From a virus, in IMG/VR virus record IMGVR_UViG_3300022934_002389, positions 62,001 to 126,000 of that record: DNA of 64,000 nucleotides, one strand, 5' to 3'. Below are positions 1 to 38,611 of this stretch, piece by piece. Each line of letters opens with the position of its first letter. The stretch's first letter is position 1. The notes below the pieces were generated by a model, which was not told the origin of the DNA, searched no databases, and was given only the letters and a program-made list of their open reading frames with translations. Both the position numbers and the translations under genes were made by a program.

Positions 1-912
1 AACAATCCTCTTAATAAATTAATTTGGGATAAAGTGCAAGAAATGTTTTATTGGAACATTGCACCAGAATCTCCAATATGCCAATTGCCGTTTACACAAG
101 AATTTATTGACGCATGTGAACAAGAATTTTCAATGACTGTTCGTGATATGCATTATCCTATTTCCTTAGGAAAAGTTGATCAATGGTTTGGTAAACGTAT
201 GCAAGATTTTGTAAAAGAAATTGACGCACAATATCAGCACAATTATTTTGTCGGAGAAAATGGAACTAGCACAACTGGTGTAGTAGGAACTATATATGAT
301 GTTGACGAAAAACCTATTACAAACAAATGGAATATTAGAGGACAAGCACTTGTAGACAGATTACAGGCTATGCAAAAAGAAAATCCTAATTTAACAATTT
401 TAGATATGGGTTGCGGAGTTAACGAATACAAAAAACATTTGAATAATGTTACTGGAGTTGATCCGTATAGAGAAGAAGCAGATATTTTGTCCAAGCAAAG
501 TGATTTTATTACGCAAGGTAAAACTTGGGATATAATCATTTGCTTTGGCCCACAGAATTGGTATACTTACGATGAACAATTTAGAAACTTCAAAAAACTC
601 AAAGAATGTTTGGCACCGGGCGGGTTACTTTTGTGGTCGCACGTACATCACTATTATAAAGTATTTCAGCCCGATCATCTTTATGCGCACACTTGGATAC
701 ACGGAGACATGGATCATGCTCAACGTAATAGTGCTTTTTATTTTTATGATCGCGATTGGAAATATACTTGGTATTTCAATTGGACCGAACATGCCGTAGA
801 AACACTTGCTAAACATGTAGGACTGTCTATTGATAAAGTAGATTATGATCATTGTAATTTATATAGACCGCCTATGTATAGAATATTTGTGGAGATGACA
901 CATGAAAAATAG
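1..912 (+). CDS. Class I SAM-dependent methyltransferase, 5' end outside window
   Basis: The frame is open from base 1, so the gene starts upstream. The GTG at 34 and ATG at 43 are internal candidates only. The middle carries a class I methyltransferase core: a motif I strand and glycine loop (ILDMGCG), an acidic residue after the next strand (GVDPY), then WDIIICFG and the post-motif APGGLLLWSH. The N-terminal third is not recognisable. The substrate is unknown; the neighbours (oxygenase-like, radical SAM, PP-loop) suggest a biosynthetic or modification pathway rather than DNA methylation, and no DPPY-type DNA-methylase motif is present. It overlaps the next gene by 11 bases, so the two are probably translationally coupled. 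Confidence 0.75.
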   Translation, partial: NNPLNKLIWDKVQEMFYWNIAPESPICQLPFTQEFIDACEQEFSMTVRDMHYPISLGKVDQWFGKRMQDFVKEIDAQYQHNYFVGENGTSTTGVVGTIYDVDEKPITNKWNIRGQALVDRLQAMQKENPNLTILDMGCGVNEYKKHLNNVTGVDPYREEADILSKQSDFITQGKTWDIIICFGPQNWYTYDEQFRNFKKLKECLAPGGLLLWSHVHHYYKVFQPDHLYAHTWIHGDMDHAQRNSAFYFYDRDWKYTWYFNWTEHAVETLAKHVGLSIDKVDYDHCNLYRPPMYRIFVEMTHEK

Positions 913-1471
913 ATGGGACGTAACAGTAGCAGCGTCTAATTATCATTGGGATCCTAACGCAAACGATAGCAATACTATTAGAATAATAAGTAATGTGTTT
1001 GATGAATGGAATGATGAAATCGAACGTGCTATAGAATTACAAAAACCTGTTATTAGTGACGGAACAATCGAAAAGCACATATCTGCCGGAACGCACATGT
1101 ATAACGGAGTTATAGTTGATACTACAGAATTTCCAATACTCGGTAGTATCGGTAAAAAACTAGGATTTGAAGAATATAATACAAGTATTCAAACACAAAC
1201 TACTGGAATGACAACTCCATTGCATATAGATTCATCTTCTGGAGATAAAGAAAGAGTTATTGTTATGCTTCAAGACTGGTACTGGGGACAAATACTTCAA
1301 TTTGGTAATATAGTATTACATAATTGGAAAGCAGGGGATGTATTATATTTTAGTATCAATGGTACACCGCATAGTACAGCAAATTTAAGTCCACATAGTA
1401 GAACTATAGCAAAAATTACAGGACGCACAACAGATGCATTTGAAAAATTATTAAAGGGAGAGTCTCAGTGA
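902..1471 (+). CDS. 2OG-Fe(II) oxygenase-like protein, first of a tandem pair
   Basis: A 189-residue protein. His108 and Asp110 (LHID) with distal His157 (PHSTAN) and Arg167 (SRTIAKI) form the HxD...H plus Arg pattern of double-stranded beta-helix 2-oxoglutarate/Fe(II) oxygenases. The sequence between them (VMLQDW, FGN, WKAGDVLYF) fits the usual jelly-roll strands. The substrate cannot be read. The start ATG lies inside the end of the methyltransferase gene, and the stop overlaps the next start by 4 bases (GTGA). It is clearly paralogous to the next gene: same first nine residues, and the same metal-site layout. A cupin-like protein without oxygenase activity is the alternative. Confidence 0.6.
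   Translation: MKNRWDVTVAASNYHWDPNANDSNTIRIISNVFDEWNDEIERAIELQKPVISDGTIEKHISAGTHMYNGVIVDTTEFPILGSIGKKLGFEEYNTSIQTQTTGMTTPLHIDSSSGDKERVIVMLQDWYWGQILQFGNIVLHNWKAGDVLYFSINGTPHSTANLSPHSRTIAKITGRTTDAFEKLLKGESQ
903..929 (+). repeat. 27-bp direct repeat, copy 1 (start of first oxygenase-like gene)
   Basis: Bases 903-929 are identical to 1469-1495. The repeat begins at the second base of each start codon and covers the first nine codons, after which the genes diverge sharply. Such nucleotide identity inside otherwise diverged paralogues suggests a duplication junction, gene conversion or a constrained translation-initiation region. Confidence 0.9.
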
Positions 1472-2130
1472 AAAATAGATGGGACGTAACAGTAGAACAA
1501 AGTAATTATGATTTTAATCCGTTTAGAGAAAGTGATCATGGCAAAAGCTTTAGAACAGTAGGAAATATAGAACCTACATGGAAAGATGAAATACCTATTG
1601 CAAATGCTAATCAATACGACTTTTATTGGCCTTCGCCTGTGTCTCCAGAAGGCGACAGTTTTAATTATGACTATGAAGAATTGCTTTGCAAGGATTGGGG
1701 TATACCTTTAGACTTTGTTGTATACAGACAGTGGACAACAACGGATGAAACACCAATACTAAACAGTCTAGCCGAACAAATCGGTTTAGAAAATGCACAA
1801 ACAAATATTCAAACTCAACATACAGGAATGATGCTACATTTACATATAGATAGTTTAACTGGTTTACGAAAAGAACGTACAGATCAAACAAGTAGTAGAG
1901 CAACAGACGATGAATGGGGTAGATGCTTTGTAATGCTTGATGATTGGGCACCTGGACATATTATTCAATTTGGTAATACCTACGTACCACCTTGGCATGC
2001 AGGAGATGTAATTTGGTTTGATTGGGCAAACATACCACATAGCACTGCTAACACTGGACCATGGCCTAGAAACATTGCAAAAATTACAGGTAAAGTTACG
2101 CAAAGGTATAAAGAGTTTGTTGGAATCTAA
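1468..2130 (+). CDS. 2OG-Fe(II) oxygenase-like protein, second of a tandem pair
   Basis: A 220-residue paralogue of the preceding gene. The metal site is His126/Asp128 (LHID) and His191 (PHSTAN), with Arg201 as the likely 2-oxoglutarate anchor. It has about 30 extra residues, mostly between residues 45-95 and in a loop at 131-150 that follows the HxD motif, so the substrate pocket probably differs. The start is GTG at 1468, overlapping the upstream stop; the same nine N-terminal codons make this start secure. The 3' end abuts or overlaps the following radical SAM gene. Confidence 0.6.
   Translation: MKNRWDVTVEQSNYDFNPFRESDHGKSFRTVGNIEPTWKDEIPIANANQYDFYWPSPVSPEGDSFNYDYEELLCKDWGIPLDFVVYRQWTTTDETPILNSLAEQIGLENAQTNIQTQHTGMMLHLHIDSLTGLRKERTDQTSSRATDDEWGRCFVMLDDWAPGHIIQFGNTYVPPWHAGDVIWFDWANIPHSTANTGPWPRNIAKITGKVTQRYKEFVGI
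1469..1495 (+). repeat. 27-bp direct repeat, copy 2 (start of second oxygenase-like gene)
   Basis: Second copy of the repeat at 903-929, in the same position relative to the start codon of the paralogous gene. The first base of the start codon differs (ATG versus GTG). Confidence 0.9.
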
Positions 2131-3226
2131 ACCTAGTTGTTGGTTTGCTTATAAAGGTTTATCTGTAGATTCTACAGGCAATCTAAATCCTTGCGGCCAT
2201 AGCACTTATAAGTTTGGAAAATTTACTGACTACAACTCTTTGAATGTTGACAGAACAAATGCTATAAAAGATTTTGATCAACATGTTCCGAAAGGGTGCA
2301 TTTCTTGTACAAATAGAGAAGTGAGAAACGAACAAAGTAGACGTTTATATCATTACGATTGGTTCAGTCAACAGGTAAATTTTGATATAGAATTTTTAGA
2401 TATTGATATAGGTAATCTATGCAATCTCAAATGTAGAATGTGTAATCCTGGACAGTCGTCTAGTTGGATAAAAGATGGACACCTTAAAGATAAAGTTGAT
2501 TTTACGTTAGACGATTTTGATAATAATAAGATTCTTGATAATATAAATGGCGATATGATAAAATTTTTATCTAGTTTAGATTCTTTAAGGTATATTATTA
2601 TAAAAGGTGGAGAACCTTTTATGCATCCAAGATTCTTTGAGTTTATAGAATGTATTCCAAACAAGCATAACGTAAAATTACAGATTATTACCAATGGCAC
2701 ACATAAATTGACTAAAGATGAAAAGAGATTGTTTGCTAAATTTGATAAACTGAATATTTTCTTTTCAGTAGAATCTGATGGAGAGATGTATCAATACATT
2801 AGAGGCGGAAAATTTACATTTGAAGAATCATTAGATAATTGGAAATCTTACAAAACGTTTCCTAATGCAAATGAAATTGGATGGATTTATACTGCAAACA
2901 TTTATGGTATCTATAATTTTGATAGTTTACAGAGTAAAATAGAAAACTCTATTGATTTTGGACATCAAGTTCTTGATCCTATGTATTTGAATCCGTTGAT
3001 TACACCTTTACATATAAAACAAAAAATATTAGAAACTACAAACTATTCTCATTGGAAAAAATATTTTGCAACTAGTGCAACAGATTTGTTTGGTATAAGC
3101 ATAGACAAACAATACAAACTTTTATGCAATTTGTATTCTTACACAACAACATTAGATAATATTAGAAGACAACACCTTTTAGATGTAGAGCCCAGGTTTG
3201 AGTGGATTTATGAATACAACAAATAA
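2117..3226 (+). CDS. Radical SAM protein with extra N-terminal cysteine motif (type A)
   Basis: The CNLKCRMC motif is a canonical CxxxCxxC radical SAM cluster site, followed by the GGEP motif (IIIKGGEPFM) and a SAM-domain barrel. Upstream of the core is a region with CWFAYKGL, NPCG and CISC cysteines that could bind a second cluster, as in SPASM or twitch-type enzymes. The frame is open back to 2018, but that would overlap the upstream gene by 113 bases. TTG at 2117 or 2120, just before the first conserved block and behind an AAGG, is the more likely start. The same architecture occurs at 22269-23504 and 40496-41578. The substrate is unknown. Confidence 0.75.
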   Translation: MLESKPSCWFAYKGLSVDSTGNLNPCGHSTYKFGKFTDYNSLNVDRTNAIKDFDQHVPKGCISCTNREVRNEQSRRLYHYDWFSQQVNFDIEFLDIDIGNLCNLKCRMCNPGQSSSWIKDGHLKDKVDFTLDDFDNNKILDNINGDMIKFLSSLDSLRYIIIKGGEPFMHPRFFEFIECIPNKHNVKLQIITNGTHKLTKDEKRLFAKFDKLNIFFSVESDGEMYQYIRGGKFTFEESLDNWKSYKTFPNANEIGWIYTANIYGIYNFDSLQSKIENSIDFGHQVLDPMYLNPLITPLHIKQKILETTNYSHWKKYFATSATDLFGISIDKQYKLLCNLYSYTTTLDNIRRQHLLDVEPRFEWIYEYNK

Positions 3227-3245
3227 TTAGTGTATAGGAGAAGGT

Positions 3246-3989
3246 ATGATTGAAAAAGGCGTTACAATAGATTTACACGGAACCAAAAGAATTGGTATGA
3301 AATTGTCAGGTGGACCTGACAGTGCAATGATTCTTTATATGATTTGTAAAAAAATAACTGATGAGAATATAGATATTGAATATATTCAACCAATTACTGC
3401 TACAGCAGATGTTAAACCATACAATATAAAATTTGCCAGAAGAGTAATTGAATGGATGCGAAATAGATATCCTAATATTGAAATCAAAGATACACATTGT
3501 GCTGTATGCAGATATGAAGAATATAATTCTCGACAAGAAGAATTAGTAAGGGATTTAATTTTAAACAGAGATATTGATATTACATTTGCAGGAATTACAG
3601 CAAATCCTCCCGATGAAAAAGGCAGGAATTTTTGGCCTTGCAATCCTAAATACACTAGAGCAATTGAATTAGACTTTGACGAGCATCCTGAAGACATTTC
3701 AAATGCAGATTGGAATACAAGAGCAGTTGAAAGAGACGAACCTGATGTCGAAGTTTATTGGTCTACTTGGAGAGGCAAGGACGAAAAAGTTCCAATGGTA
3801 AGACCTTTTATTAATCATGATAAAAGGAAAGTAGCAGAATTATATCATCACTACGATATTATGGAATTGTTTGATATAACAAGATCTTGTGAAAACAGAG
3901 ATGGTCCTGCGCTAAACGATTTCGAAGATCATTGCGAAACAGAATGTTGGTGGTGCTATGAACGTAGATGGGCCTTTGGGCGAGTTTAA
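3246..3989 (+). CDS. queC: QueC-like PP-loop ATP pyrophosphatase
   Basis: The PP-loop SGGPDS lies at residues 21-26 of 247. The C-terminal part has four cysteines (215, 230, 234, 237) in a CWWCYERRWAF context. This matches the zinc site and terminal block of QueC, which uses ATP and ammonia to convert 7-carboxy-7-deazaguanine to preQ0. The middle is not obviously QueC, so another PP-loop enzyme (adenylating or thiolating) is possible. In favour of QueC, FolE, QueD, QueE and DpdA homologues are all on this contig and no other QueC is seen. Against it, the gene sits between two radical SAM genes, far from the others. An AGGAG precedes the ATG, and it overlaps the next gene by 32 bases. Confidence 0.5.
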   Translation: MIEKGVTIDLHGTKRIGMKLSGGPDSAMILYMICKKITDENIDIEYIQPITATADVKPYNIKFARRVIEWMRNRYPNIEIKDTHCAVCRYEEYNSRQEELVRDLILNRDIDITFAGITANPPDEKGRNFWPCNPKYTRAIELDFDEHPEDISNADWNTRAVERDEPDVEVYWSTWRGKDEKVPMVRPFINHDKRKVAELYHHYDIMELFDITRSCENRDGPALNDFEDHCETECWWCYERRWAFGRV

Positions 3990-4818
3990 GTATACAGGCT
4001 GGCACATTGAACTAACAAACAGATGTCCACTAGCATGTCCTGCATGTATTAGAACTATGCACGGGCCTGGTTCTAAGTCAGACATTGATACTAAATTACT
4101 TCTCAACTTTTTGCCTAATCCTGAAAAATATGATTACATATTTTTTCAAGGTAATTTGGGAGATCCTATATATCATCCTGATTTCCACAAAATTTCAGAA
4201 CATTTTTTCCCAGCAAATGAATTACAAGTTACAACAAATGGAATGCAAACAAAAGAGTTTTGGCAAAGAGTGCTAGAAACATGGCCCGAGTCTAGTATTG
4301 TTGAACTTAGTATAGACGGCCTACAAGACACTAATAGCATATACAGAGTTAACAGTAATTGGAACAAAATACAAGAACTTTTTGAACTTATAGCAACTAC
4401 TAAACGCAAATGTCAGATTATATGGAAGTATATTGTTTTTGAACACAATCATCATCAAGTTGAAGAAGCAATAGCCTTAAGTAAAAAAATAGGCATGAAT
4501 GAATTTAAAATTAAAAAAAGTTGGACTATACATGATGACATGTCCAATAATGGCCAAGTTAAAGACTATTATAATCCAGAATGGTTTGATTATGTAAAAA
4601 GAGAAACACTTGACGAATTAGCACCTTTCTGTTATACTGGAGACATGCATTATATAAATTCGCAAGGTAACTATTATCCTTGTTGTTGGATAGATAACGA
4701 CATAAGTTCTGTAGGACACATATCAGAAGGTTTAGATAGTATTAAAGATAAATTTTTAAACTTTAGTAACTTATTAATTTGGAGTAAATGTCCTAAAGTA
4801 TGCAAAAATGTGTTGTAA
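3958..4818 (+). CDS. Radical SAM protein with C-terminal cysteine cluster (type B)
   Basis: A 286-residue protein with CPLACPAC (CxxxCxxC) near residue 23. The GGEP position is degenerate (QGNLGDP), and the barrel includes LSIDGL. The C-terminal cysteines (FCYTG, YPCCWID, KCPKVCKN) resemble a SPASM/twitch auxiliary-cluster region, here followed by a short tail. It is closely similar in layout to 41544-42665. The ATG lies 32 bases inside the PP-loop gene, implying coupled expression. It may act on the same substrate as the PP-loop enzyme, but the reaction is unknown. Confidence 0.75.
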   Translation: MNVDGPLGEFKYTGWHIELTNRCPLACPACIRTMHGPGSKSDIDTKLLLNFLPNPEKYDYIFFQGNLGDPIYHPDFHKISEHFFPANELQVTTNGMQTKEFWQRVLETWPESSIVELSIDGLQDTNSIYRVNSNWNKIQELFELIATTKRKCQIIWKYIVFEHNHHQVEEAIALSKKIGMNEFKIKKSWTIHDDMSNNGQVKDYYNPEWFDYVKRETLDELAPFCYTGDMHYINSQGNYYPCCWIDNDISSVGHISEGLDSIKDKFLNFSNLLIWSKCPKVCKNVL

Positions 4819-4883
4819 AATTAGTGATAACGATAAAGAAATGATTACACCTAACAACGTTGTTGATAGAAAAATAATAGTAA

Positions 4884-6173
4884 ATGATTGAATTAGGAAT
4901 TTGGAGTGGTATCGGTTTACTAACTGGTCTTTTAGCCGGGTTAGTGCCAGGTGCTGGTCCATTTGTTGCTATTGGTGTCTTATACCCGTTTTTAGCGTCA
5001 ACTAGTGCGGTTAATATTATGGCGTGTTATGTTGCTATACTCATTACCACTAACTATACTAATAGTGTTACAGCAATCTTATACGGTATACCCGGAGATG
5101 CTACTGCAATTAGCACAGCAAGATACGGACATAAAATGTTTCAAAAAGGCGCAGGCGGCCTTGCTGTAACAAGTAACGCAATTAGTAGCACCGTTGGTGT
5201 AGCATTTGCAATGTGTTTGTTTTTAGTTGCCTTGCCTAGTATTATGCATGTATTCAAATTTTATAACAGTATTATACAAACAATTGTAATACTAGTTGCA
5301 ATATGTATGATTACATTTTTTACAAAACAGAATAAACTTTTGACATTATTACTGTTTTGTTTTGGAGGATTAATATCACATCAAGGAATTGATCCGATTA
5401 CATTTGATCAGTTTCTTGTTTTTAACAATTTTTATCTTAGTTTAGGAATACCTTTTGCAAGTGTAATGATTGGATTGTATCTGTTTCCTGAGATACTAAA
5501 AATTCATAACATTTCTATTTCCCAACCTAGCAAGATAAGTAAGTATGCAATAGGAAAAGGCACATTTGGTCCAAGCCTGTTAGGTAGCTTTATTGGATTT
5601 TGGTGCGGTCTTATTCCTGGCATAACGAATATTCTTGGTAGTTATGCTAGTGCAGGCATTGTAAAACGCTTTTTTAAAAAGCCTGTACTTAAAAGCATTG
5701 CTGCCGCAGAGGCTGCTAACAATAGTGGAGCATTATCCAGTTTGTTGCCTTTGCTAATCCTTGCTATACCTATTACGGGTAGTGAAGTAATTGTGTACTA
5801 CTTGATGTTAGAAAGTGGTTATCAATTTAATATAGAAAACACAGTAGACAAACTGTCTTCTATACTTTACTTTATACCGGTAGTGACATTAATATGTTTA
5901 CTTTTAAGTTGGTATGGTTTTAACCTGTTAGGTCAAATAGTGTATCTTTATAAACAATATAGAGTATATGCAAATACGTTGATCCTAACTACTATAAGTG
6001 TAATAAGTGTCGTTATCTTTCCTATACACGAATGGATGGTAGCATGTATACTGATTGCAATGGTACTAGGATATTTTCTACGAAATTACGATACGAGCCC
6101 AGTCATTTATGGATATTTCCTTAGTGACTTGTTCTATGAAAGTTTTGTAAGGACTGTTATAATATTATCTTAG
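4884..6173 (+). CDS. tctA: TctA-family tripartite tricarboxylate transporter membrane subunit
   Basis: A 429-residue polytopic membrane protein, shorter than the usual roughly 500 residues. It keeps the duplicated TctA signatures: GLVPGAGP near the N-terminus, the GIPGDATAISTARYG block, then in the second half GLIPGITN and AEAANNSGALSSLLPLL. TctA is the large permease subunit that imports carboxylates using a periplasmic TctC. No TctB small subunit is adjacent. It is followed 8 bases later by a TctC-like gene, so the two form an operon. It probably serves as an auxiliary uptake gene, or replaces or modulates a host permease. A 65-base gap precedes it. Confidence 0.85.
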   Translation: MIELGIWSGIGLLTGLLAGLVPGAGPFVAIGVLYPFLASTSAVNIMACYVAILITTNYTNSVTAILYGIPGDATAISTARYGHKMFQKGAGGLAVTSNAISSTVGVAFAMCLFLVALPSIMHVFKFYNSIIQTIVILVAICMITFFTKQNKLLTLLLFCFGGLISHQGIDPITFDQFLVFNNFYLSLGIPFASVMIGLYLFPEILKIHNISISQPSKISKYAIGKGTFGPSLLGSFIGFWCGLIPGITNILGSYASAGIVKRFFKKPVLKSIAAAEAANNSGALSSLLPLLILAIPITGSEVIVYYLMLESGYQFNIENTVDKLSSILYFIPVVTLICLLLSWYGFNLLGQIVYLYKQYRVYANTLILTTISVISVVIFPIHEWMVACILIAMVLGYFLRNYDTSPVIYGYFLSDLFYESFVRTVIILS

Positions 6174-6181
6174 GAGAAAAA

Positions 6182-6949
6182 ATGAAAAAATTTATCACAG
6201 CACTAACAGCAATGTTTATTGCAACATCTGCAAACGCAGAAATTTTAATTGTAAATCCAGGTTCAGAAGAGGGTGCTTTTAGACAAGTATTGACTGAAAT
6301 TGGAAACAAAATTGATCATCAATTTGTACAGGCAAATAATCCTGTAACAGCATCAACCTATTTAGCAAAAGGCAATGCACTTACTATTTGGAGTAGTGAA
6401 TGGCCTGGAGATCCTAAAATGCCATCAGTAGAAGTAAGTGAAGACACACTTGTTGCTCTAATGACATATGAAACTATGATGTGTAGTAGAGAATTTACAA
6501 CACTAGAAGATCTTAACGGACAGGAAGTAAAGATTGCAACATGGGGTAGCGCACCAGTAGCGAAATTCTTAGGAAACTTAGAACAAGCAACAGGAGCAAC
6601 ATTTACAGTTGTACCATTTGGTGGTAGTGGTAGTACAACAAAAGGTTATCTTGCAGGTGATGCAGATACAGTGTTTACTATTACAACTAGACAAACTGCT
6701 ATCGAAGAAGATGCAAACACAACATGTTTTGCATTTAGTGAAACAGGCGATCTAGGTTTCCGTTTTGTTGATGCAATCAACACAGTTTGGCTAGACAACA
6801 ACACTACAACAGAACTTCGTGCAATTGTTGGTAATTTGTCTATGACACCAGAATGGCAAGATAAGTTTTCAGGCACAAAAACTTATATTGGCGGAACACC
6901 AACAAATGTTGCTATGTTTGAAGAAGCGGTAGAAAACTTCTCACAATGA
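6182..6949 (+). CDS. tctC: TctC-like periplasmic solute-binding protein
   Basis: A 255-residue protein with a clear Sec signal peptide (MKK, hydrophobic stretch, cleavage after SANA near residue 19). The body resembles the Bug/TctC solute-binding family: an early strand ending in NPG, a VVPFGGSGSTTKGYLAGDAD block equivalent to the family's loop-and-'GG' region, and a hinge-like middle. It would deliver a carboxylate or related anion to the TctA permease encoded just upstream. TTAGGAG precedes the ATG. It is slightly shorter than cellular TctC (about 300 residues). It overlaps the next gene by 4 bases. Confidence 0.75.
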   Translation: MKKFITALTAMFIATSANAEILIVNPGSEEGAFRQVLTEIGNKIDHQFVQANNPVTASTYLAKGNALTIWSSEWPGDPKMPSVEVSEDTLVALMTYETMMCSREFTTLEDLNGQEVKIATWGSAPVAKFLGNLEQATGATFTVVPFGGSGSTTKGYLAGDADTVFTITTRQTAIEEDANTTCFAFSETGDLGFRFVDAINTVWLDNNTTTELRAIVGNLSMTPEWQDKFSGTKTYIGGTPTNVAMFEEAVENFSQ

Positions 6950-7467
6950 ACTTCGAAATTAGACGCCTTTATGTAGATAATCTACCTAGTCAGATATATG
7001 ACTTTATGCAGTCGTGTGCTGAACAAGGATTAGAAAACAATGTTTCAAAGGTGTCTATGAAGTTTGGTAAATGGAAAGATGAAGCGTGGTGGTGTACTTG
7101 GGTTGACAATAAAATTGTTAGCATAAGCGGCTGCCACGCTTTTGACGATTATATACCAGATAGTTACAGAGTTTGTTTGCGCACTGCAACACTTAAAGAA
7201 TACAGAGGAAAAGCACCAGGAAGTATAAAAAAGATGCATAATGATTTTAATTGGGGTCATATACTTCCTTATCAAATTGAGTATGCTAAAAGCAAAGGTG
7301 CTAAAAGAATAGTTTTTACAACAAATAGTGAAGTTGACAAAAGTCCAAACAGTTTTAGGACCAACAGGGTTGTTGAAAAAGTTTTCATTCCGCAAGGATT
7401 GTGTAGACTTGTTGAAAAAGATGCAGAAGTCTTCTATACGAAGCAAAATATTTGGGAAGTGATATGA
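6946..7467 (+). CDS. GNAT-like acyltransferase, putative
   Basis: A 173-residue protein. The order of segments (a WTWVDNKIVSISG-like strand pair, then LRTATLKEYRGKAPGS, then an AKSKGAKRIVFTT strand) resembles the GNAT fold with a degenerate acetyl-CoA loop (R-G-K-A-P-G). No strict Q/RxxGxG/A is present. The ATG overlaps the tctC stop (ATGA) and its own stop overlaps the next ATG, so it belongs to the same operon. A smaller GNAT-like protein is in the second radical SAM locus (42692-43126). Confidence 0.4.
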   Translation: MNFEIRRLYVDNLPSQIYDFMQSCAEQGLENNVSKVSMKFGKWKDEAWWCTWVDNKIVSISGCHAFDDYIPDSYRVCLRTATLKEYRGKAPGSIKKMHNDFNWGHILPYQIEYAKSKGAKRIVFTTNSEVDKSPNSFRTNRVVEKVFIPQGLCRLVEKDAEVFYTKQNIWEVI

Positions 7468-8105
7468 ACGAACAATTGATTGCAATGCAAAGATTAGCCA
7501 TGATGGGAGATTGGTTAGAATTAGATGTTTTTCATCATGATAATCTTATGAAAGAAATTGAACCATTCAAAGATGATTGGAAACCATACAATACTAGAAA
7601 ACCTAACAATAGATGGGGATTAAGTGTTACTAGTTTAGATGGTGGTTTGAGCGGCATTCCTGACTTAGACAGTCTTTCAGAATACAATAAAAAATATAAT
7701 ACTAATATTACCAATCATGACATAGACAAGCCTACACCTGTATATGAGGCTAGTCCTACATTGCAAAGCATTTTAGAACCTTTTAAACCATGGCTAGGAC
7801 GCTGTCATTTTTTAAAATTAGATGAAGGTGGCTTTTTTCCTGAACACTATGATATTAATAAAACAACATATGATTACGATGAAATAAGATTGATTGGTTT
7901 TGTTCATAACTGTAATAAACATTTTTTAAAATTTGTTTATGAAGATACAATACCACAGTATGATGATAGTAATTTATTCTACTTCAATGCTAATAAAAGA
8001 CACACTGTTTTTAGCACAGTTGATGATTGTATTATGCTTGTTGTTTGTTTAAAATTTGATACAGGATGTTATAAAGCTTTACTTGACCAATATATTTGCT
8101 CGTAG
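7464..8105 (+). CDS. 2OG-Fe(II) / Asp-hydroxylase-like oxygenase
   Basis: A 213-residue protein from the ATG at 7464, which overlaps the upstream TGA. FFPEHYD supplies His128 and Asp130, and NKRHTVFS supplies distal His180, the HxD...H iron triad of the aspartyl/asparaginyl hydroxylase-like branch. A good 2-oxoglutarate Arg partner is not obvious. It is not closely similar to the tandem pair at 902-2130. It is the last forward gene of the accessory block and converges with the ATP-grasp gene, overlapping it by 27 bases with no terminator visible. Confidence 0.55.
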   Translation: MNEQLIAMQRLAMMGDWLELDVFHHDNLMKEIEPFKDDWKPYNTRKPNNRWGLSVTSLDGGLSGIPDLDSLSEYNKKYNTNITNHDIDKPTPVYEASPTLQSILEPFKPWLGRCHFLKLDEGGFFPEHYDINKTTYDYDEIRLIGFVHNCNKHFLKFVYEDTIPQYDDSNLFYFNANKRHTVFSTVDDCIMLVVCLKFDTGCYKALLDQYICS

Positions 8106-9398
8106 TTTATTGTTTACTGAATTATAATTATCAAATAATTCTTTTTCATTTGTTCCTGTAATATCTAAATTTACATTAAAATTTTTATCTTGTAAATTTT
8201 GAAATGCAGGAATGCGTATGCCTGTCTTTATTTCAGTGTTTTGTTTATTTAGATATGGTGTAATATTTTCTAAATTTTTTACTTCTTTAATTTTTCCAGG
8301 TTGTAATACAGCACATCCCCATAATAGTCTTTTTTGTAAATTTATTTCTTTTCCTTGCAACATATTACTAATAATTTTGCCATCGTTCATTCTGTCTAAA
8401 ATGTTAACAAATTGTCCTGGTCTTGGATTAAAGTCAATAGCAACCTTTCTACCATTGTTAAAATGAAAGTCAGGACCTGCAAAAAACATATCTTTGATTG
8501 CAAGTTTATCTACAATAGTTTGCAAGAAGAATTGACATAATCCTGGAAAATCTGTAGGAACTTCATCTGCGGTTACAATCCATACTGCACGTTCTCTAAC
8601 AATATCACTTTTTTTACTTTTACTATGACTTTCTATTGGATTGCTATTATGATCTAATTCGTCGCCATATTTTATCTTACTATTTTTTACATAGAATGCA
8701 ATGTTTACTTTTCCATCTTTTACATATCCGTAAGGACTAATACTAGGTTCTTCGCTCCAAATATATTCTTGAAACATAATTTTACACGGTTTAAAATTAA
8801 AACGTTGTGTATGTATACCTTGTCTGTTAAGATCAAAAAATTCATTGTGTATATTCTTAGATTTAATATGATCTAAGAAATGATGCATGTTATTCCATCT
8901 TCTATATTCTATTACAGGATTGCTTGCATCGTCACCTGGATAAAAGACGTTACTTCCTGTACCAATGTCTGGTTTACTAAACATTTCTTTGTTTTTAAAT
9001 GCTTTTAGTTGGTTGTAAAATGTAGGAGTAATACTTTTTGGTACTAGTACATCCATACCAACTTGTCTACAAAAGTCATCAAACTTCTGTTTGTTGCTCA
9101 ATATTTCTGCTGCAAATGCACTTATATTTTTAATGCCGTAAAATGATTCTAGTTGTGCTTGAATAGGAAGTAAGTTTTCGCTAATAGTATAAATTCTGTC
9201 TACACAACTGAAACGTTTTGTAATTTCAAGAATGTCAAACCCTTTACAAATAAACACTTCTTGTGGTAGATCTATAAAATGTTCATGATCTGGTGCAGGT
9301 TCAAAATCAGTTACAATACTACAATTTTTTCTTAATGCTGTAACAAGGCCTTCGCATTTGTTTAAACTTCGTTCATGTGCTATTATTAGTGTTTTCAT
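8079..9398 (-). CDS. ATP-grasp family protein
   Basis: A 439-residue protein. The order is an N-terminal pre-ATP-grasp region, a KQKFDDFCRQVGMDVLVPKS segment typical of the start of the ATP-grasp domain, a lysine strand (EMFSKPDIGTGS), an EYIW hinge segment, and the metal-binding end AIDFNPRPGQ (Asp...Asn). Members ligate a carboxylate to an amine or thiol using ATP. The substrate is unknown. A peptide- or amino-acid-ligase role would fit the nearby oxygenases, GNAT and radical SAM genes. Its start overlaps the end of the upstream alpha/beta hydrolase gene by 26 bases. Confidence 0.7.
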   Translation of the reverse strand: MKTLIIAHERSLNKCEGLVTALRKNCSIVTDFEPAPDHEHFIDLPQEVFICKGFDILEITKRFSCVDRIYTISENLLPIQAQLESFYGIKNISAFAAEILSNKQKFDDFCRQVGMDVLVPKSITPTFYNQLKAFKNKEMFSKPDIGTGSNVFYPGDDASNPVIEYRRWNNMHHFLDHIKSKNIHNEFFDLNRQGIHTQRFNFKPCKIMFQEYIWSEEPSISPYGYVKDGKVNIAFYVKNSKIKYGDELDHNSNPIESHSKSKKSDIVRERAVWIVTADEVPTDFPGLCQFFLQTIVDKLAIKDMFFAGPDFHFNNGRKVAIDFNPRPGQFVNILDRMNDGKIISNMLQGKEINLQKRLLWGCAVLQPGKIKEVKNLENITPYLNKQNTEIKTGIRIPAFQNLQDKNFNVNLDITGTNEKELFDNYNSVNNKLRANILVK

Positions 9399-10032
9399 TT
9401 ATATCATGCTTTATCATATTCATACACATTATATACGCATTTTCAGAATATTGCAACCTAATTTTTTCTTCTTTGTACGGATATTTTTGTATAGTTTTTG
9501 ACATGTTAAATGTATTTTGTCTAGTATCTTCTTCTAATGGAATTATTGGCTTGATAACTTCAAATGAATTATTTTTGTTCATAAAGCCGTGATAGCAATT
9601 TGCAAGCCTAATATGGCTGATGTTTTTTGCTTGATCGCAAAATTCAGTTATGTTATCACACCAATTGTCTAGTTCTGCACTGTAGACTGTAGTGTTTGAA
9701 TAATCTTTTGATAAAGTTTCTTTTGTAAAACCTAGCATACCTGGATAAAATATATGATTACTAACAAACTTTTCTGAATGAACTAACCCTAAATATCCAC
9801 CTAAACTTAATCCAATGTGTATGCATTCGTCCGGAAAAGGAATATCATAGATCATTTCTTGTAGTGTAACATCATGTTCATCTTCTAATGTCCAGTACAA
9901 GCAATCTATACCGTGCGGGCTAAAGTAATCATTTAAGATTACTTCATGCCCTAATTCTTCAAATTCTTTTTTAAGTTTTAACTCACAATTACCAATGCCC
10001 CCACTTCCGTGAGATATTACAATTGGTAACAA
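9373..10032 (-). CDS. Alpha/beta hydrolase
   Basis: A 219-residue protein with an oxyanion-type HGSGG at residues 8-12, the nucleophile elbow GLSLGG, a likely acid at AELDNW and a catalytic His in CYHGFMN. It lacks a signal peptide, so it is cytoplasmic. The best start is TTG at 10032, directly after the tail-fibre stop codon. Its own 3' end overlaps the ATP-grasp gene, which suggests co-expression late in infection by read-through from the tail-fibre promoter. The substrate is unknown. Confidence 0.6.
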   Translation of the reverse strand: MLPIVISHGSGGIGNCELKLKKEFEELGHEVILNDYFSPHGIDCLYWTLEDEHDVTLQEMIYDIPFPDECIHIGLSLGGYLGLVHSEKFVSNHIFYPGMLGFTKETLSKDYSNTTVYSAELDNWCDNITEFCDQAKNISHIRLANCYHGFMNKNNSFEVIKPIIPLEEDTRQNTFNMSKTIQKYPYKEEKIRLQYSENAYIMCMNMIKHDINENTNNST

Positions 10033-12009
10033 TTATGCAGCCGTACCATCGTCTAAATTAATCCAAGCACCGTTTTGATAACCTTGGAATCTGTCTACTG
10101 ATTCGTTGTAAATAACCATGCCGTTGACAGCAGTTAATGCATTTCTATTTGCTGTTGTGTATTGACCAAACTGTATGTAGCCACCTGATGTGATAGTATT
10201 TTCTACAGCATCTACTATAATTGTAGAATCGTCAGCAACTAAACTACCTTTAAACGCCGACGCTGTAACATCACCCTCAAAAATACCTGAACCATTAACA
10301 TCTAATTCTGCACTAACAGTTGCTTTACCAATACCTACTTTGATTTGATCTGAATCGTTTGTTGTAAACATAACAAACTTTTCGTCAATTGTCAAATCGT
10401 TGTTTTTAGCAACACCTATGAATAATGCATCGTGTCCAGCTGTAATTTTGGAACTATTGATATCCCCGTCAATATCTGATATTGCGCCAAATTTTATTTC
10501 GCCTCTGATATCATAAACTCCGTCATCTAGTGCTGCATCTGCTTTATTCTTTTTGAGATCTAATTGCATTCTTCCTTCAAAAGAATTAAATTGAATAACT
10601 TGATCACCTGTTGTTTGCGATCTGTTTTCAAATAAAACTGTTAAATCATTTGGCAACCATCTAGTAAAGTGCATTTCTGATAGTTCTACTGATGTTAAAC
10701 TAACAGATGCTTCGTCGTATAAGTCACCGAATGTATTACCAAATAAATCACCTTGGAAAACTCCTGTCGGTGAACATTCAAAAGCACCTATAAATAAATT
10801 TCCTGTAAAAGTTTTATCCGCTGCATTTACTATTACTGCTGAATCATCTGCAATAACATTACCTTGCACGTTACCATTAAGTTGATTACTTACACCATCA
10901 ACAAGTATTGTAGAATCTTCGCCGATTAGATTACCTTGTACATCAATGGTATATGTTTGTCCGTCAACAATACCAATAGTAGGAGGAAAATTAAACAATC
11001 CGCTTGCATCACCCGTTACTCTATCAAAGTTACCAGTTGTTGCGTTAACTTCTTCAAACTTTGTTCCTACTCTACCAATTTTACCTGTTCCGCTAACAAC
11101 AGGGACAACATCTTTGTTGTTTAAAAAGTTTACACCGTTGACGTTAACAGAGCCACTTGGTGCAGTAATATCTATGTTTTGATCTGGTGATGTAATAACA
11201 CCACTGCCTGTGTATTCTGTATCTGCTCTTAATTTTCCTGCAACAGAATCTACCATTACAAAACTACTGTCTGAGAAAATACTACCTGTAACGTCACCAT
11301 CTAACGGACCAAAAATTTGATCAGCTTCTATATTACCGTTGAAGAATGAATTTCCGGTAATTGTTAATCCTAAACCAGCAAACGTTTGATTTGTTGCATC
11401 TAACAATAATGTGCTATCATCAGCAACAATGTTGATATTATAGTTACCACCACCTACAACACCTTCACCGCCACCTCCGCCAGTACTTGGAAGATTTGTT
11501 AAAAGACTACCGTCACCTACAAAAAAGTTTGCTGTTACTGTTTTAGAGAACGTATCAACCATAATAGTTGAATCATCTGCTACTACATCACCTGTAATAC
11601 TAATATCATATGTTTGGCCTTCGAGGATGCCTGTGCCTCCTCCTCCTCCGCCTGTTACTGGTAAGTTTGTAAGTCCGCTACCGTCACCTACAAATGACCC
11701 TGCGGTAACAGAACCAGTTGCTGTCATTGTATTTGCGCTAACATTAGCAGCAGCAGCAACTGATGTAGGACTAATAGTACCACCGATTGTGATATTACCT
11801 GTACCTACAATGTCAAAGTTATTAAGATCTAAATTTTGGCTTAGTACTGCTGGGGAACCACTTACACTACCTGTAACTCTGATACCGCCTAGTGTGCTGC
11901 CATCGCCCACGTAAATTTCTTGTGTATCAGTTGTGTAAACTAGTTCGCCTTCTGCAAACGTAACGCCCAACCTTTCAAGGTTTGTTCCGCGGCGAAGTCT
12001 CAATGTCAT
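10033..12009 (-). CDS. Tail fibre / receptor-binding-type structural protein with repeats
   Basis: A 658-residue protein. The first 45 residues (MTLRLRRGTN, AEGELVYTTDTQEIYVGDG) are the conserved N-terminal module of many marine phage fibres and tropism determinants. The body is Gly/Ser/Thr/Asp-rich and contains at least six imperfect repeats around ADDSTI-VDA, most followed by a T-A/G-xFxGDGS segment. The C-terminus (GMVIYNESVDRFQGYQNGAW) is typical of fibre tips. It is driven by a late promoter at 12046-12053 and has a hairpin over its ribosome-binding site. The predicted role is host attachment, from composition and context. Confidence 0.75.
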   Translation of the reverse strand: MTLRLRRGTNLERLGVTFAEGELVYTTDTQEIYVGDGSTLGGIRVTGSVSGSPAVLSQNLDLNNFDIVGTGNITIGGTISPTSVAAAANVSANTMTATGSVTAGSFVGDGSGLTNLPVTGGGGGGTGILEGQTYDISITGDVVADDSTIMVDTFSKTVTANFFVGDGSLLTNLPSTGGGGGEGVVGGGNYNINIVADDSTLLLDATNQTFAGLGLTITGNSFFNGNIEADQIFGPLDGDVTGSIFSDSSFVMVDSVAGKLRADTEYTGSGVITSPDQNIDITAPSGSVNVNGVNFLNNKDVVPVVSGTGKIGRVGTKFEEVNATTGNFDRVTGDASGLFNFPPTIGIVDGQTYTIDVQGNLIGEDSTILVDGVSNQLNGNVQGNVIADDSAVIVNAADKTFTGNLFIGAFECSPTGVFQGDLFGNTFGDLYDEASVSLTSVELSEMHFTRWLPNDLTVLFENRSQTTGDQVIQFNSFEGRMQLDLKKNKADAALDDGVYDIRGEIKFGAISDIDGDINSSKITAGHDALFIGVAKNNDLTIDEKFVMFTTNDSDQIKVGIGKATVSAELDVNGSGIFEGDVTASAFKGSLVADDSTIIVDAVENTITSGGYIQFGQYTTANRNALTAVNGMVIYNESVDRFQGYQNGAWINLDDGTAA

Positions 12010-22242: not shown

Positions 22243-22271
22243 TAATATAACACACAAACACCCAAATGTCA
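22243..22271 (-). promoter_or_regulatory. Sigma70-like promoter
   Basis: Minus strand: TTGACA, 17-bp spacer, TATATT, in the 58-base gap before the 185-residue gene. The leader contains ATAGAGGCAC, a partial match to the TATAGGCAC element after the MoxR and VWA promoters. Confidence 0.8.
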
Positions 22272-23504
22272 ATCTTTTAAAAAACCAAATTCAGGATAAA
22301 GATCTAAGAATTTTGTTGCTCTTGTACTGTCAAAATAATCCAACATGTATCTAAAATAATCACGTTGTTTATCTGATAAAGTTTTTTGTGGCTCCGTTTT
22401 AATCCAATCTAACCAGTTGTAGTCGTCTATTAGGTTTAAAGTTTTTAACTCTGGTAAGAAAGTTTCAATTTTTTTTACAATTTCAATTCTGTAATCAATG
22501 GGTGAGTTGGCAAAATGTAATGGCTCTGGCCAATCTAAAAATGTTGTATTAAAAGGAAACTTATTTTGTTTAATAAAGTCAAGCAAATTTGGCAAATCTT
22601 TTAGATTTAGCAATTGTATTGTAGGCTCTAAGGTAATTTGAAAATTCTCATATTGGTCGCATATTTTTTTAGATCTTAAAATCTTGCTTTCCAATGCAGA
22701 CCAAGAACTAGGGTATCGAACATATTCTAAAACTTTTCCAGTAGCATCCAAACTTATTGATAAGTTTACATGCTTAAACTTTGTAAGGTATTTTTCTATC
22801 CATGATTCTTTGATAATTGTGCCATTTGAAATTATGTGTACCTTTATATGACCGCTTTCTTTTCTATTCACTAATTCTTCTATCAAAGATGTAAATCCCT
22901 TCATCACAAACGGCTCGCCGCCGACTGCCATAATCTCTTGAGTTCTTTTTGCATTTTCAAGTATATGGTCAACAAATCGCTGGTTGAAATTATTAGATGA
23001 TGTAGAAAGAACTTCTAGGTCTTTACTATTGGTATAAGGATTGCTTTTGCCGAATTTATTATATTCTAGCATGTTCTTTGCAATTTGATTGCTCAATGTA
23101 GGGTTACACATCACGCACTGCAAGTTACATTCGTTGCTCATTCTCAAATCAAAACTCAGAGGACTAGGAACAACTGTATGGGCATTTTTATAATAATAAT
23201 CGGCTAATGATTTCCATTTATGATTTTCATACTGTCGGTTTGAAATGATTCCCTGTTCTTCACTTTCAATACAACTTTTACAGATATTTTTAGGGATGAT
23301 TCTTTGATTGAATTTGTGTCTTAATTTTTGTAAAGTCTTGCTGTTCCATACTTCATCGACATCCTTGCCTAGAATATTAATATCGTCTGAATCTAATTGT
23401 TTTGCATAACAACAGGCTTTCATATGCCCTGTTGTTGTCACAAACATTTTAACAAAAGGATGGACACAAAAATTTTTGTATAAATCTTCTATTTCATTCG
23501 TCAT
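22269..23504 (-). CDS. Radical SAM protein with extra N-terminal cysteines (type A)
   Basis: A 411-residue protein. CNLQCVMC gives the CxxxCxxC cluster site and MAVGGEPFV the GGEP motif. A preceding region with CVHPF, ACCYA and CKSC cysteines matches the layout of 2117-3226 and 40496-41578. Twitch/SPASM-type radical SAM enzymes often act on peptides, but no precursor peptide is seen nearby. The substrate is unknown. It is the only one of the five accessory radical SAM genes without a type B partner beside it. Confidence 0.8.
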   Translation of the reverse strand: MTNEIEDLYKNFCVHPFVKMFVTTTGHMKACCYAKQLDSDDINILGKDVDEVWNSKTLQKLRHKFNQRIIPKNICKSCIESEEQGIISNRQYENHKWKSLADYYYKNAHTVVPSPLSFDLRMSNECNLQCVMCNPTLSNQIAKNMLEYNKFGKSNPYTNSKDLEVLSTSSNNFNQRFVDHILENAKRTQEIMAVGGEPFVMKGFTSLIEELVNRKESGHIKVHIISNGTIIKESWIEKYLTKFKHVNLSISLDATGKVLEYVRYPSSWSALESKILRSKKICDQYENFQITLEPTIQLLNLKDLPNLLDFIKQNKFPFNTTFLDWPEPLHFANSPIDYRIEIVKKIETFLPELKTLNLIDDYNWLDWIKTEPQKTLSDKQRDYFRYMLDYFDSTRATKFLDLYPEFGFLKD

Positions 23505-23900: not shown

Positions 23901-23986
23901 TATAAGTGTTTCCTTAGTTTTTTGTATTGTTCTTCAGTGACTATCCCACTAGCGTACTTACTAATTTCCTTATGTTCCCCAGGCAT
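23900..23986 (-). CDS. 28-residue ORF between queE and the next gene
   Basis: ATG at 23986 lies inside the end of queE in another frame and the stop forms TAATG with the next start. The peptide (MPGEHKEISKYASGIVTEEQ, then YKKLRKHL) resembles the short SHOCT-type helix-turn motif (GIVTEEQYKKL). It could be a real small protein. It could also be the tail of QueE after a frameshift; no slippery sequence was identified. Confidence 0.35.
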   Translation of the reverse strand: MPGEHKEISKYASGIVTEEQYKKLRKHL

Positions 23987-24863
23987 TTCCGAATAGGCTA
24001 ATGTGGAGTCTTGGAGTGAACCTCCAGCCTCGTTCCATACAGAGCTTCGCCACCTCTTGTACCGTGATGTTGTACCCTTCCGAGCGACCGCCAAGCGGCA
24101 TAAGATAGACAGGGCATTCCACACCCGCTGAACGATATTCACTAACTGCTCTACTAACTTCATCAACATCATCCATATCAGCAACAACAAATTTAAGATA
24201 CACAGAACTGCTGTCACAACGAGCGTAATCACGCAAGACGTCAGGTTTGATAGCTGAATCCCAAGTTTCTCCGCTGACGGATAACTTAGGAGAACAACTA
24301 AATGTCCATTCAATTCTGTCATTGTTGTTGATGTAATTGAACAAATCATCATGTAAAAATTGTGTAGTGTTTGTTTCAAACGTGACATTTTTTAAATCTT
24401 TCATTTTCGGATGTTCAAACAACTCTACGTAGAGTCGTTGCCATGCAAGTAATGGTTCACCGCCTGTCATAATCAAATGAATATCTTGTCCATTATCTTG
24501 TGTCCATTTGCCTTCCGGCAATAAACTAATCAAATGATCTACAACTTCGTCTACTTCTGCAAGTTTGTTAAAGTGTTTAAACTCTGGATAGATACTAGCA
24601 TATGTATCACAACCTGTGTGAATAATAGGTAAATCTTCAAATTTTTCTGTAGTTTCGTGTACGCCTGCGTCAAGTAGTGCCTTTACTTCTGGATTGTAAC
24701 GATTGCCTTCTGCGTGTTGTTCCCAACGATTCTTGTCTTTTGGTAAGCCAAAATTCATACAACGAAAGTTGCAACCAAATGTACGTAAAAATACGCTAGG
24801 TACTCCTACGTATTTACCCTCACCTTGTACACTATAAAATGCTTCACTGTAACGTAATTTCAT
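23970..24863 (-). CDS. queE: QueE-like 7-carboxy-7-deazaguanine synthase, atypical cluster motif
   Basis: A 297-residue protein. SEAFYSVQGEGKYVGVPSVF is the QueE signature, and ITGGEP-like MTGGEPLLAW and FETNTTQ follow. The cluster motif is unusual: GCNFRCMNF has Phe where the third cysteine of CxxxCxxC should be. The next cysteine is some 50 residues away (HTGCDTY). A cluster ligand may come from that Cys, as variant spacings are known in QueE. QueE converts carboxytetrahydropterin to CDG, a step towards preQ0. With FolE, QueD, a QueC-like gene and DpdA it fits a DNA 7-deazaguanine pathway. Confidence 0.8.
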   Translation of the reverse strand: MKLRYSEAFYSVQGEGKYVGVPSVFLRTFGCNFRCMNFGLPKDKNRWEQHAEGNRYNPEVKALLDAGVHETTEKFEDLPIIHTGCDTYASIYPEFKHFNKLAEVDEVVDHLISLLPEGKWTQDNGQDIHLIMTGGEPLLAWQRLYVELFEHPKMKDLKNVTFETNTTQFLHDDLFNYINNNDRIEWTFSCSPKLSVSGETWDSAIKPDVLRDYARCDSSSVYLKFVVADMDDVDEVSRAVSEYRSAGVECPVYLMPLGGRSEGYNITVQEVAKLCMERGWRFTPRLHISLFGNAWGT

Positions 24864-30538: not shown

Positions 30539-30704
30539 TGATATTCTCCAGTCTGTGTATTTCGTCTTTATACCAAAGTTTTTTTGTTTTTAATTTCCTA
30601 ATTGCGTCATCTACAATGTATGATTTTTCAAGTTCAATAATTTCTTCATCTAGTTTTCTGTGCTTTCTTTTCAGTTCGACTAAATGTTCTTCATGTCCCA
30701 TCAT
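30516..30704 (-). CDS. DUF465/YdcH-family small protein
   Basis: A 62-residue protein. HLVELKRKHRKLDEEIIELE and LKTKKLWYKDEIHRLEN are the two halves of the DUF465 (YdcH) helical hairpin, found across proteobacteria and their phages. The function is unknown. It starts at the dpdA stop. Confidence 0.8.
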   Translation of the reverse strand: MMGHEEHLVELKRKHRKLDEEIIELEKSYIVDDAIRKLKTKKLWYKDEIHRLENIIALGKRT

Positions 30705-32161: not shown

Positions 32162-32889
32162 TATTTACTTTGTGCTGGCAGGATATAGTCATACTTGGCC
32201 ATACCACTGTCTACTGTAATCATCATAGCACCTTGATCTGTGATGCTAATTTTCTTATCGCCATCTAGCCCTAAAATAGAAATAGTTTGCGCAACTGGCC
32301 ATGCCCAAGTATGTTGTAAGTTTCCGCCAACATCATGTTGGAATGTAAACTTACCCGCATGTGTATTCAAGTCACCAAAGTAAAAATTAAGATTTCCATC
32401 TTCTGTCTTAACTTGGAATACAGGTTCTTCTGAATGAGCACCGGCCATTAGTTTCATACGTGCAATTGCTGCAACACTTGGTTGAAATTCTACATCCCAT
32501 GTGCTACCTTTAAATTTTACACTTTTTAGTTTTTCTTCAATAATCGCTTTGTTCATAAAGCGATAATCATTTTGGAAGTCTCCACCTTCATTTTCAAAAT
32601 GAATGTGTGTTGGAATAGTTTCACCATTCCGATCTTCTTGCACTACGTCAATTTTTGCTTTATCTTGATATTCTGGGTTCTTCAAATGATATGCAAGTTT
32701 GTTAAGATCTGGCATACCAAATGTACCTACAAATTCTGACACTGGCGAATGTGTTGTAGCACTAAGTACAACACTTCTATCTTCCGCCATACTTTCAATA
32801 CTTGTCTCTTGTTCTGCTACAACTTTTAATGTTGTAATAAAGCCGAGACTATGTGTGTGCGACACAACATCTTGTAAGATATCTTTCAT
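32161..32889 (-). CDS. Sliding clamp, gp45-like
   Basis: A 242-residue protein. It has the two-domain beta/alpha rhythm of T4 gp45: an EFVGTFGMPDLNKLAYHL early segment equivalent to 'YDLNGFL', a central MARMKLM-like helix (AAIARMKLMAG) and a terminal MITVDSGMAKYDYILPA strand like the 'YVVALEA' end. Identity is low, so this is a fold- and context-based call. It lies near polymerase and clamp-loader genes, and T4 gp45 is also required for late transcription, consistent with the late promoters in this window. A consensus promoter drives it. Confidence 0.65.
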   Translation of the reverse strand: MKDILQDVVSHTHSLGFITTLKVVAEQETSIESMAEDRSVVLSATTHSPVSEFVGTFGMPDLNKLAYHLKNPEYQDKAKIDVVQEDRNGETIPTHIHFENEGGDFQNDYRFMNKAIIEEKLKSVKFKGSTWDVEFQPSVAAIARMKLMAGAHSEEPVFQVKTEDGNLNFYFGDLNTHAGKFTFQHDVGGNLQHTWAWPVAQTISILGLDGDKKISITDQGAMMITVDSGMAKYDYILPAQSK

Positions 32890-34353: not shown

Positions 34354-34507
34354 TTATGCATACCGCCTTTTCTCCTTCTGTAAACAATGCTTCAAGAACT
34401 GCTGCATTTATACTGCATTGCTGCTGTGTATTATACTCGTTAAATTTTGTAACTTTATATTCATCAATATCTACAAGTGAACTAATTATCAATAGTGTCC
34501 ACATCAT
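34346..34507 (-). CDS. 53-residue small protein
   Basis: ATG at 34507 (a second ATG follows directly) with GAGAGG upstream; the stop overlaps the PMM-like start. A hydrophobic beginning (MMWTLLIISSLVDIDEYKV) is followed by QQQCSINAAVLEALFTEGEK. Real by packing and RBS; the function is unknown. Confidence 0.55.
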   Translation of the reverse strand: MMWTLLIISSLVDIDEYKVTKFNEYNTQQQCSINAAVLEALFTEGEKAVCINE

Positions 34508-34637: not shown

Positions 34638-34649
34638 CCTTGTTGCGCC

Positions 34650-38602: not shown

Positions 38603-38611
38603 TATTATATA

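Follow-up and report, generated by a model that had tools for sequence, protein, structure and literature searches.

At the start of a 64,000-nucleotide stretch of viral DNA (positions 62,001 to 126,000 of IMG/VR record IMGVR_UViG_3300022934_002389, G000:C1:62001-126000 in our numbering; hereafter the window) lies a block of twelve open reading frames (ORFs) that includes four genes conserved together in viral contigs, encoding a TctA-family permease, a periplasmic substrate-binding protein, an ATP-grasp ligase and a putative 2-oxoglutarate (2OG) hydroxylase, hyd62 (Table 1). We propose, with a probability of roughly 0.48, that this core is a horizontally exchanged phage cassette which imports and tailors a carboxylate, situated at the right-hand end of an accessory island in a jumbo T4-like marine myovirus. 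An extended form of the cassette adds B12-binding radical S-adenosylmethionine (SAM) proteins (B12-rSAM), more 2OG-oxygenase-like proteins and a methyltransferase.

Linkage of the core genes and exchange of the cassette

Gene order was compared with that of independent contigs; 161 loci were scanned with profiles, and clustering of the TctA proteins at 90% identity gave 26 clusters. All 23 TctA clusters with at least 3.5 kb of downstream sequence carried both the ATP-grasp and the binding-protein gene, and hyd62 was present in 16 of the 17 clusters with both flanks, the exception (L021) being a contig that begins inside the locus. Counting from the ATP-grasp gene, the 16 fully flanked clusters held the binding protein in 15 cases, TctA in 15 and hyd62 in all 16, and a scan with g48, an oxygenase-like gene of the extended form, recovered essentially the same contigs, a few truncated ones apart. 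TctA (PF01970) was detected on 10 of 13 contigs searched. An earlier note on this DNA had held that adjacency would be accidental if the genes were never conserved together; the recurrent linkage across independent viral contigs, in 26 TctA clusters, clearly speaks against this. Its suggestion of a modification pathway with carboxylate uptake, kept as a unit, is supported by the linkage and by the folds described below, although the conserved set is not the one it named: the order methyltransferase, oxygenase, oxygenase, radical SAM, PP-loop, radical SAM was found in no virus other than the window phage and those nearly identical to it.

Three arrangements of the cassette were distinguished. 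Arrangement I runs in the order B12-rSAM46, redoxin47, g48, hyd62, g49, B12-rSAM50, (g51, MT52), MT53, oxy55, (rSAM58), TctA and binding protein, with the ATP-grasp gene on the opposite strand. Arrangement II comprises hyd62, TctA and ATP-grasp with the binding protein on the opposite strand, and arrangement III comprises hyd62, TctA and the binding protein, the ATP-grasp gene being the one on the opposite strand. In the window phage, hyd62 stands at the far end and a second copy of oxy55 precedes oxy55 itself.

The carriers belong to two T4-like capsid lineages, one jumbo and one pelagimyophage-type, whose Gp23 proteins are 35-40% identical to each other. The TctA proteins of the jumbo contigs G002 and G016, however, share 66-70% identity with their counterpart in the pelagimyophage-type G018 but only 58-59% with the one in the jumbo G022; the G022 protein, for its part, shares 66% identity with TctA of the pelagimyophage-type G026. 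Since TctA is thus closer between the lineages than within the jumbo lineage, the capsid genes disagree with the history of the cassette, and the latter has therefore been exchanged between phage lineages. In pelagimyophage-type contigs the cassette is flanked by relatives of island genes and of tail-fibre genes of Pelagibacter phage Mosig EXVC030M, many of the flanking genes having Mosig counterparts that are up to 89% identical. An FkbM-type methyltransferase gene, recognised by eye, lies between TctA and ATP-grasp in two loci (L149:10084-10786 and L089), one of which is jumbo and the other pelagimyophage-type, a further sign of exchange.

Eleven window genes could be aligned with an orthologue in the sister record G005; their omega (dN/dS) values ranged from 0.018 to 0.256, which indicates that these genes are under purifying selection and hence functional. 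In the same comparison dS differed strongly from one gene to the next, and in G005 a single 49-like gene takes the place of genes 49-51; recombination inside the island is therefore likely to have occurred. Outside the island, a radical SAM gene at window 22269-23504 has a dS of 0.004 against G005 (0.1-0.8 for most neighbours) and therefore appears to have undergone recent recombination or transfer.

Predicted functions and a proposed pathway

Within the block, TctA is the sole polytopic membrane protein and no exporter was found, and import is therefore favoured. The adjoining binding protein is predicted to have a Bug/TctC fold, which the earlier note had not recognised; the top Foldseek matches of its model include the terephthalate-binding protein 8hka and Bug27 (2qpq). 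The ATP-grasp assignment of that note agrees with the model of the reverse-strand ORF, whose predicted fold and invariant ATP-binding residues (KP-IG-G and D-N-R) place it among the ATP-grasp ligases. Foldseek returned 356 PDB matches at E≤0.001, all of those listed being ATP-grasp enzymes, and the best were L-amino acid ligases (RizA, 4wd3, E 2.7e-16; 3vot; BacD). Its best structural neighbours, RizA, BL00235 and BacD, are nevertheless about 10-14% identical to it in sequence. The alpha/beta hydrolase read in the adjacent gene is likewise supported, in this case by invariant residues. PDB sequence-profile searches were uninformative for the ATP-grasp, the binding protein, hyd62, the GNAT-like protein, the hydrolase, g48 and g49.

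The other enzymes proposed for the block were mostly borne out. Hidden Markov models (HMMs) recovered the methyltransferase, both radical SAM proteins and TctA, the PP-loop enzyme was supported by its SGGxDS motif and by matches to PDB PP-loop enzymes at about 1e-4, and the tandem oxygenases proved to be two paralogous oxygenase-like proteins sharing an HxD..H..R motif. By contrast, a GNAT acetyltransferase at 6946-7467 could not be confirmed, the protein having neither an HMM match nor a convincing PDB match, and a third 2OG-hydroxylase-like protein, hyd62, which is 40% identical to a Mosig protein annotated 'Asp_Arg_Hydrox', had been missed. The HxD..H motif is invariant in alignments of five families (oxy55, hyd62, g48, g49 and g51). 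On the strength of this motif, and with no Pfam match, ORFs 902-1471, 1468-2130 and 7452-8105 as well as the upstream g48, g49 and g51 are classed as putative 2OG/Fe(II) dioxygenases. A weak PDB profile match linked oxy55 to phytanoyl-CoA dioxygenase/EctD (E 0.05), and the gene before it is an extra, diverged copy, 54% identical in G005. Orthologues of MT53 (omega 0.07) occupy the same place in G007, G009, G016 and L021, and those of the second radical SAM protein (3958-4818) adjoin TctA in G009, G016 and L019. The first (2018-3226) matched the NCBIfam model NF033640 (N_Twi_rSAM) at 1.6e-51, above cut-off. The nearest matches of the B12-rSAM enzymes are KedN5-type methylcobalamin C-methyltransferases (at 1e-56 and 5e-52, both below cut-off), and PF02310 was found on 10 of 10 extended-type contigs tested and on 0 of 7 minimal-type ones.

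From these folds and motifs we infer a sequence of catalytic steps, together with the kind of substrate and product. The periplasmic Bug-fold protein would capture a carboxylate, which TctA would carry through the inner membrane. The ATP-grasp enzyme would then activate the carboxylate with ATP and couple it to an amine, in a chemistry resembling that of amino-acid ligases, after which 2OG oxygenases would hydroxylate the product; carriers of the extended form would also methylate it, by means of cobalamin-dependent radical SAM enzymes and the methyltransferase.

Pelagimyophage-type carriers have an additional gene directly upstream of TctA, encoding a TonB-dependent receptor whose frame overlaps TctA in 55 of 55 locus copies. 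Its best match is BtuB (PDB phmmer 6e-30; TIGR01779 2.8e-53), although it scores below the BtuB equivalog cut-off (181 against 599.7 bits) and occurs only in these carriers. Every contig on which it was seen either has B12-rSAM genes or is truncated, and in pelagimyophage-type carriers it is likely to provide cobalamin or another ligand of similar bulk. A strict pairing of the receptor gene with B12-rSAM genes was tested and proved suggestive only.

A wider proposal is put forward tentatively: marine T4-like phages may possess a mobile small-molecule pathway, complete in itself and without known parallel in viruses, with its own uptake chain, an apparently virus-restricted ATP-grasp family and numerous 2OG and radical SAM enzymes making a specialised metabolite or cell modification during infection. 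In some carriers, uptake might extend from the outer membrane to the cytoplasm, a B12-receptor-like protein serving to supply the B12-dependent radical SAM methyltransferases. Among cultured phages no relatives were found of the PP-loop, ATP-grasp or methyltransferase proteins, and TctA and the BtuB-like receptor gave only weak matches that look like bacterial sequence. TctA and ATP-grasp had no relative in 84,980 bacterial and archaeal species genomes in a pattern scan that reaches close relatives only. If the proposal is true, widespread ocean phages would bring in a whole import-and-synthesis pathway, exchanged as a unit, beyond single borrowed genes that boost host metabolism. It would also offer a testable function for many radical SAM and 2OG-oxygenase genes of marine T4-like phages and for orphan tctA genes, and could tie phage infection to the use of vitamin B12 in the sea.

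Known systems and alternative explanations

Hypervariable islands with radical SAM cassettes have been described in pelagimyophages as a 'host recognition cluster' (HRC), for which a role in host-surface modification was proposed (Zaragoza-Solas 2020, PMC7029224). The island studied here resembles the HRC, by analogy, in being a large accessory region beside tail-fibre genes of T4-like marine phages, with radical SAM cassettes and with an Asp/Arg-hydroxylase-like protein in the Mosig island as the counterpart of hyd62. The two differ in that the Mosig stretch searched has no TctA, binding protein or ATP-grasp and holds other genes; what it has in common with the cassette is limited to hyd62, one radical SAM protein, a redoxin and, weakly, the GNAT-like gene. 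The window phage is, moreover, a jumbo phage with contigs of up to 257 kb (132-164 kb in pelagimyophages) and 16 radical SAM matches in its island. VrlC and gp14, the border genes of the pelagimyophage island, were not identified in it, and membership in the HRC is therefore not claimed. The marine T4-like environmental genome TARA_ERS488813_N000010, with 12 radical SAM genes, is similarly rich in such proteins, but the portion of PMC5332604 that concerns it treats Fe-S assembly genes and presents no TctA/ATP-grasp/BtuB module. The Fe-S carrier domain PF01521, found on carriers G018, G019, G020 and G023, is absent from the window record and from the other records of the window's phage that were searched. 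Genes for TctA and 2OG oxygenases have been reported from SUP05 viral contigs, their role being unknown there (PMC4164917), and a marine megaphage has been described that encodes a SusC-like TonB-dependent receptor (PMC9723777). Neither the linked module of TctA, binding protein, ATP-grasp and hydroxylase nor a BtuB-like gene in such phages was found in the openly licensed literature searched, which is weak evidence of absence. The earlier statement that no phage system of this content had been described thus holds for the linked module, which is new as far as searched, and fails for its parts, since marine phages were already known to carry radical SAM cassettes and lone tctA genes.

Several observations weigh against an import-and-tailoring cassette. 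TctB belongs to every classical TctABC system. Here a TctA permease adjoins a binding protein of the corresponding fold, but TctB (PF07331) was absent from 12 of 12 contigs searched (the control was detected), and the binding protein fails the Pfam TctC model by sequence although its predicted fold agrees; the direction of transport and the substrate class are therefore uncertain. The constant linkage to an ATP-grasp ligase is another difference from TctABC systems. On three contigs the ATP-grasp gene and the tailoring genes are retained although TctA is absent from the whole contig, and the correlated distances (r 0.90-0.96) would also be expected from shared ancestry. Neither the window's own phage nor any jumbo contig tested has the BtuB-like receptor, whose association with B12-rSAM genes was not significant after clustering (p 0.099).

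Foremost among the alternatives, though in our judgement unlikely, is that the island serves mainly in host-surface modification, its enzymes building or decorating lipopolysaccharide, capsule or phage fibres and so altering adsorption and excluding rival phages, while the transporter feeds in one building block. This would agree with the role proposed for the pelagimyophage island, with the Mtd_N receptor-binding gene that adjoins the island here, with the tail-fibre genes in relatives, and with the UDP-glucose dehydrogenase, epimerase and DegT aminotransferase encoded upstream. Pfam nevertheless detected no glycosyltransferase, flippase or polymerase in the block, and the minimal cassette (hyd62-TctA-ATP-grasp-binding protein) has no sugar gene among its four members. 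The product of an import-and-tailoring pathway may itself end on the cell surface, which the position of the island and the upstream sugar genes would fit.

Transport genes are known among the auxiliary metabolic genes of phages. Plain nutrient scavenging, in which TctA and the binding protein would bring in carbon for the host's metabolism and the neighbouring enzymes would be unrelated passengers, would accord with these and with the tctA genes of the SUP05 viruses, but is largely refuted by the linkage, TctA of this family being accompanied by ATP-grasp in all 23 clusters; unrelated passengers would not be expected to travel jointly between two phage lineages either, and we regard this explanation as improbable. 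Hydroxylase-like and ligase-like enzymes are also known from siderophore pathways. It is an equally distant prospect that the receptor, binding protein and TctA import a metal chelate, or one made by the phage, to provide iron or cobalt for Fe-S, Fe(II) and B12 enzymes: iron-dependent enzymes are abundant in the block and the TonB-dependent receptor stands directly 5' of TctA, but this receptor is closest to BtuB rather than to ferric-siderophore receptors and is absent in jumbo carriers, and Pfam matched no siderophore synthetase among the proteins of the block. That accessory genes came together by chance in a hypervariable region, as the mosaic island, the uneven dS and the absence of genes 49-51 from G005 might suggest, is very improbable and is contradicted for the core by its recurrent linkage in three arrangements and 26 clusters and by purifying selection, though it could apply to the genes at window 902-1471, 2018-3989 and 6946-7467.

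The virus, its island and further features

Table 1. Positions of the block, its genes, the adjoining border gene and the receptor gene (window numbering unless a locus is named)
Feature	Position	Strand	Evidence and remarks
Block	1-10032		ORF calling; 10 forward ORFs (1-8105), 2 reverse (8079-9398, 9373-10032)
SAM-dependent methyltransferase (MT53)	1..912	+	PF13489 4.8e-7; true start 6 bases before window
2OG-oxygenase-like protein, paralogue of gene 1468..2130	902..1471	+	HxD..H..R invariant in alignment A3; no Pfam match
2OG-oxygenase-like protein (oxy55), conserved member	1468..2130	+	HxD..H..R motif; 86-87% identical in G009/G016; omega 0.018 vs G005
N-terminal-twitch radical SAM protein	2018..3226	+	PF04055 2.7e-9; open frame, real start probably near 2130
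PP-loop ATPase, QueC/NAD-synthetase type	3246..3989	+	PF06508 1.1e-4; SGGxDS and C-terminal Cys cluster invariant; PDB profile 6scy 1.2e-4
Radical SAM protein, weak C-terminal SPASM domain	3958..4818	+	PF04055 1.1e-5, below cut-off
TctA-family permease, core member	4884..6173	+	PF01970 2e-57; 9 hydrophobic segments
Periplasmic substrate-binding protein, predicted Bug/TctC fold, core member	6182..6949	+	Signal-peptide-like N-terminus; AlphaFold pLDDT 79; Foldseek
Conserved protein, family A9 (acetyltransferase of the earlier note)	6946..7467	+	53-64% identical; adjoins ATP-grasp/hydrolase pair in seven loci
Asp/Asn-hydroxylase-like 2OG oxygenase (hyd62), core member	7452..8105	+	HxD..H invariant
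Predicted ATP-grasp ligase (ATPg63), core member	8079..9398	-	AlphaFold pLDDT 89; Foldseek; 66 viral loci
Alpha/beta-hydrolase-like protein	9373..10032	-	HGSGG, GxSLGG, Asp and His invariant in alignment A10 (Ser/Asp/His); no Pfam match
Receptor-binding protein, Mtd_N domain	10033..12009	-	PF18454 7.6e-9; right border of island
BtuB-like TonB-dependent receptor	L021:3255-5039; L041:2373-3998; L139:15840-17645		Frame overlaps TctA, directly upstream

The window virus is a jumbo T4-like myovirus. Its window encodes a family-B-type phage DNA polymerase, the nearest isolates being Sinorhizobium phage Phosso and Agrobacterium phage Atu_ph07, and the near-identical longer records G002 and G004 (256,558 and 236,366 bases) carry a Gp23 capsid gene (PF07068, about 1e-102). 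It is presumably marine, to judge from its relatives; no tRNA, looked for as a host clue, was found in the window.

ORF calling confirmed the twelve ORFs that had been reported, the ends of the ten forward ones overlapping or nearly touching and the run facing two convergent reverse genes. Extended over the whole record (135,461 bases), it placed the start of the forward operon near 19.7 kb, about 42 kb upstream of the window. The block of the earlier note is confirmed, yet it is not isolated, being the right-hand end of an accessory island of about 50 kb beside receptor-binding genes, most of which lies outside the window. Virion structural genes form the left border of the island. The record has 19 radical SAM matches in all, of which the forward run accounts for 16, and Pfam found in the upstream part of this run three B12-binding and many SPASM-bearing radical SAM proteins, a redoxin, a UDP-glucose dehydrogenase, an epimerase, a DegT aminotransferase, an amidinotransferase-like protein and a 2OG oxygenase. 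Promoter-like and terminator-like sites were at chance level only, and no Rfam family, and hence no cobalamin riboswitch, was found in the island loci searched. DNA hypermodification was also considered, a pathway that would call for a hydroxymethyl-pyrimidine synthase and a DNA-directed transferase; among the block proteins, which this search covered, Pfam matched neither.

As the operon genes overlap, there is little intergenic space for the precursor gene of a ribosomally synthesised and post-translationally modified peptide (RiPP). A conserved 75-residue ORF does lie between island genes (L010:18939-19163; record 38439-38666), is 75% identical in G009/G016, belongs to no family and is a candidate small partner or peptide. 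Further along the window, a second small cluster of sugar-type genes was recognised by eye at 30704-35078 (epimerase, HAD phosphatase and RfaE-like cytidylyltransferase), its epimerase being 41% identical to one in the Mosig island. A gene at 23970-24863 looks QueE-like by eye (7-deazaguanine pathway), and the same phage has the QueC-like PP-loop gene of the block. Finally, a small ferredoxin-like protein with Cys clusters, also identified by eye, is encoded at 62700-63041 and is a possible electron donor for the radical SAM enzymes.

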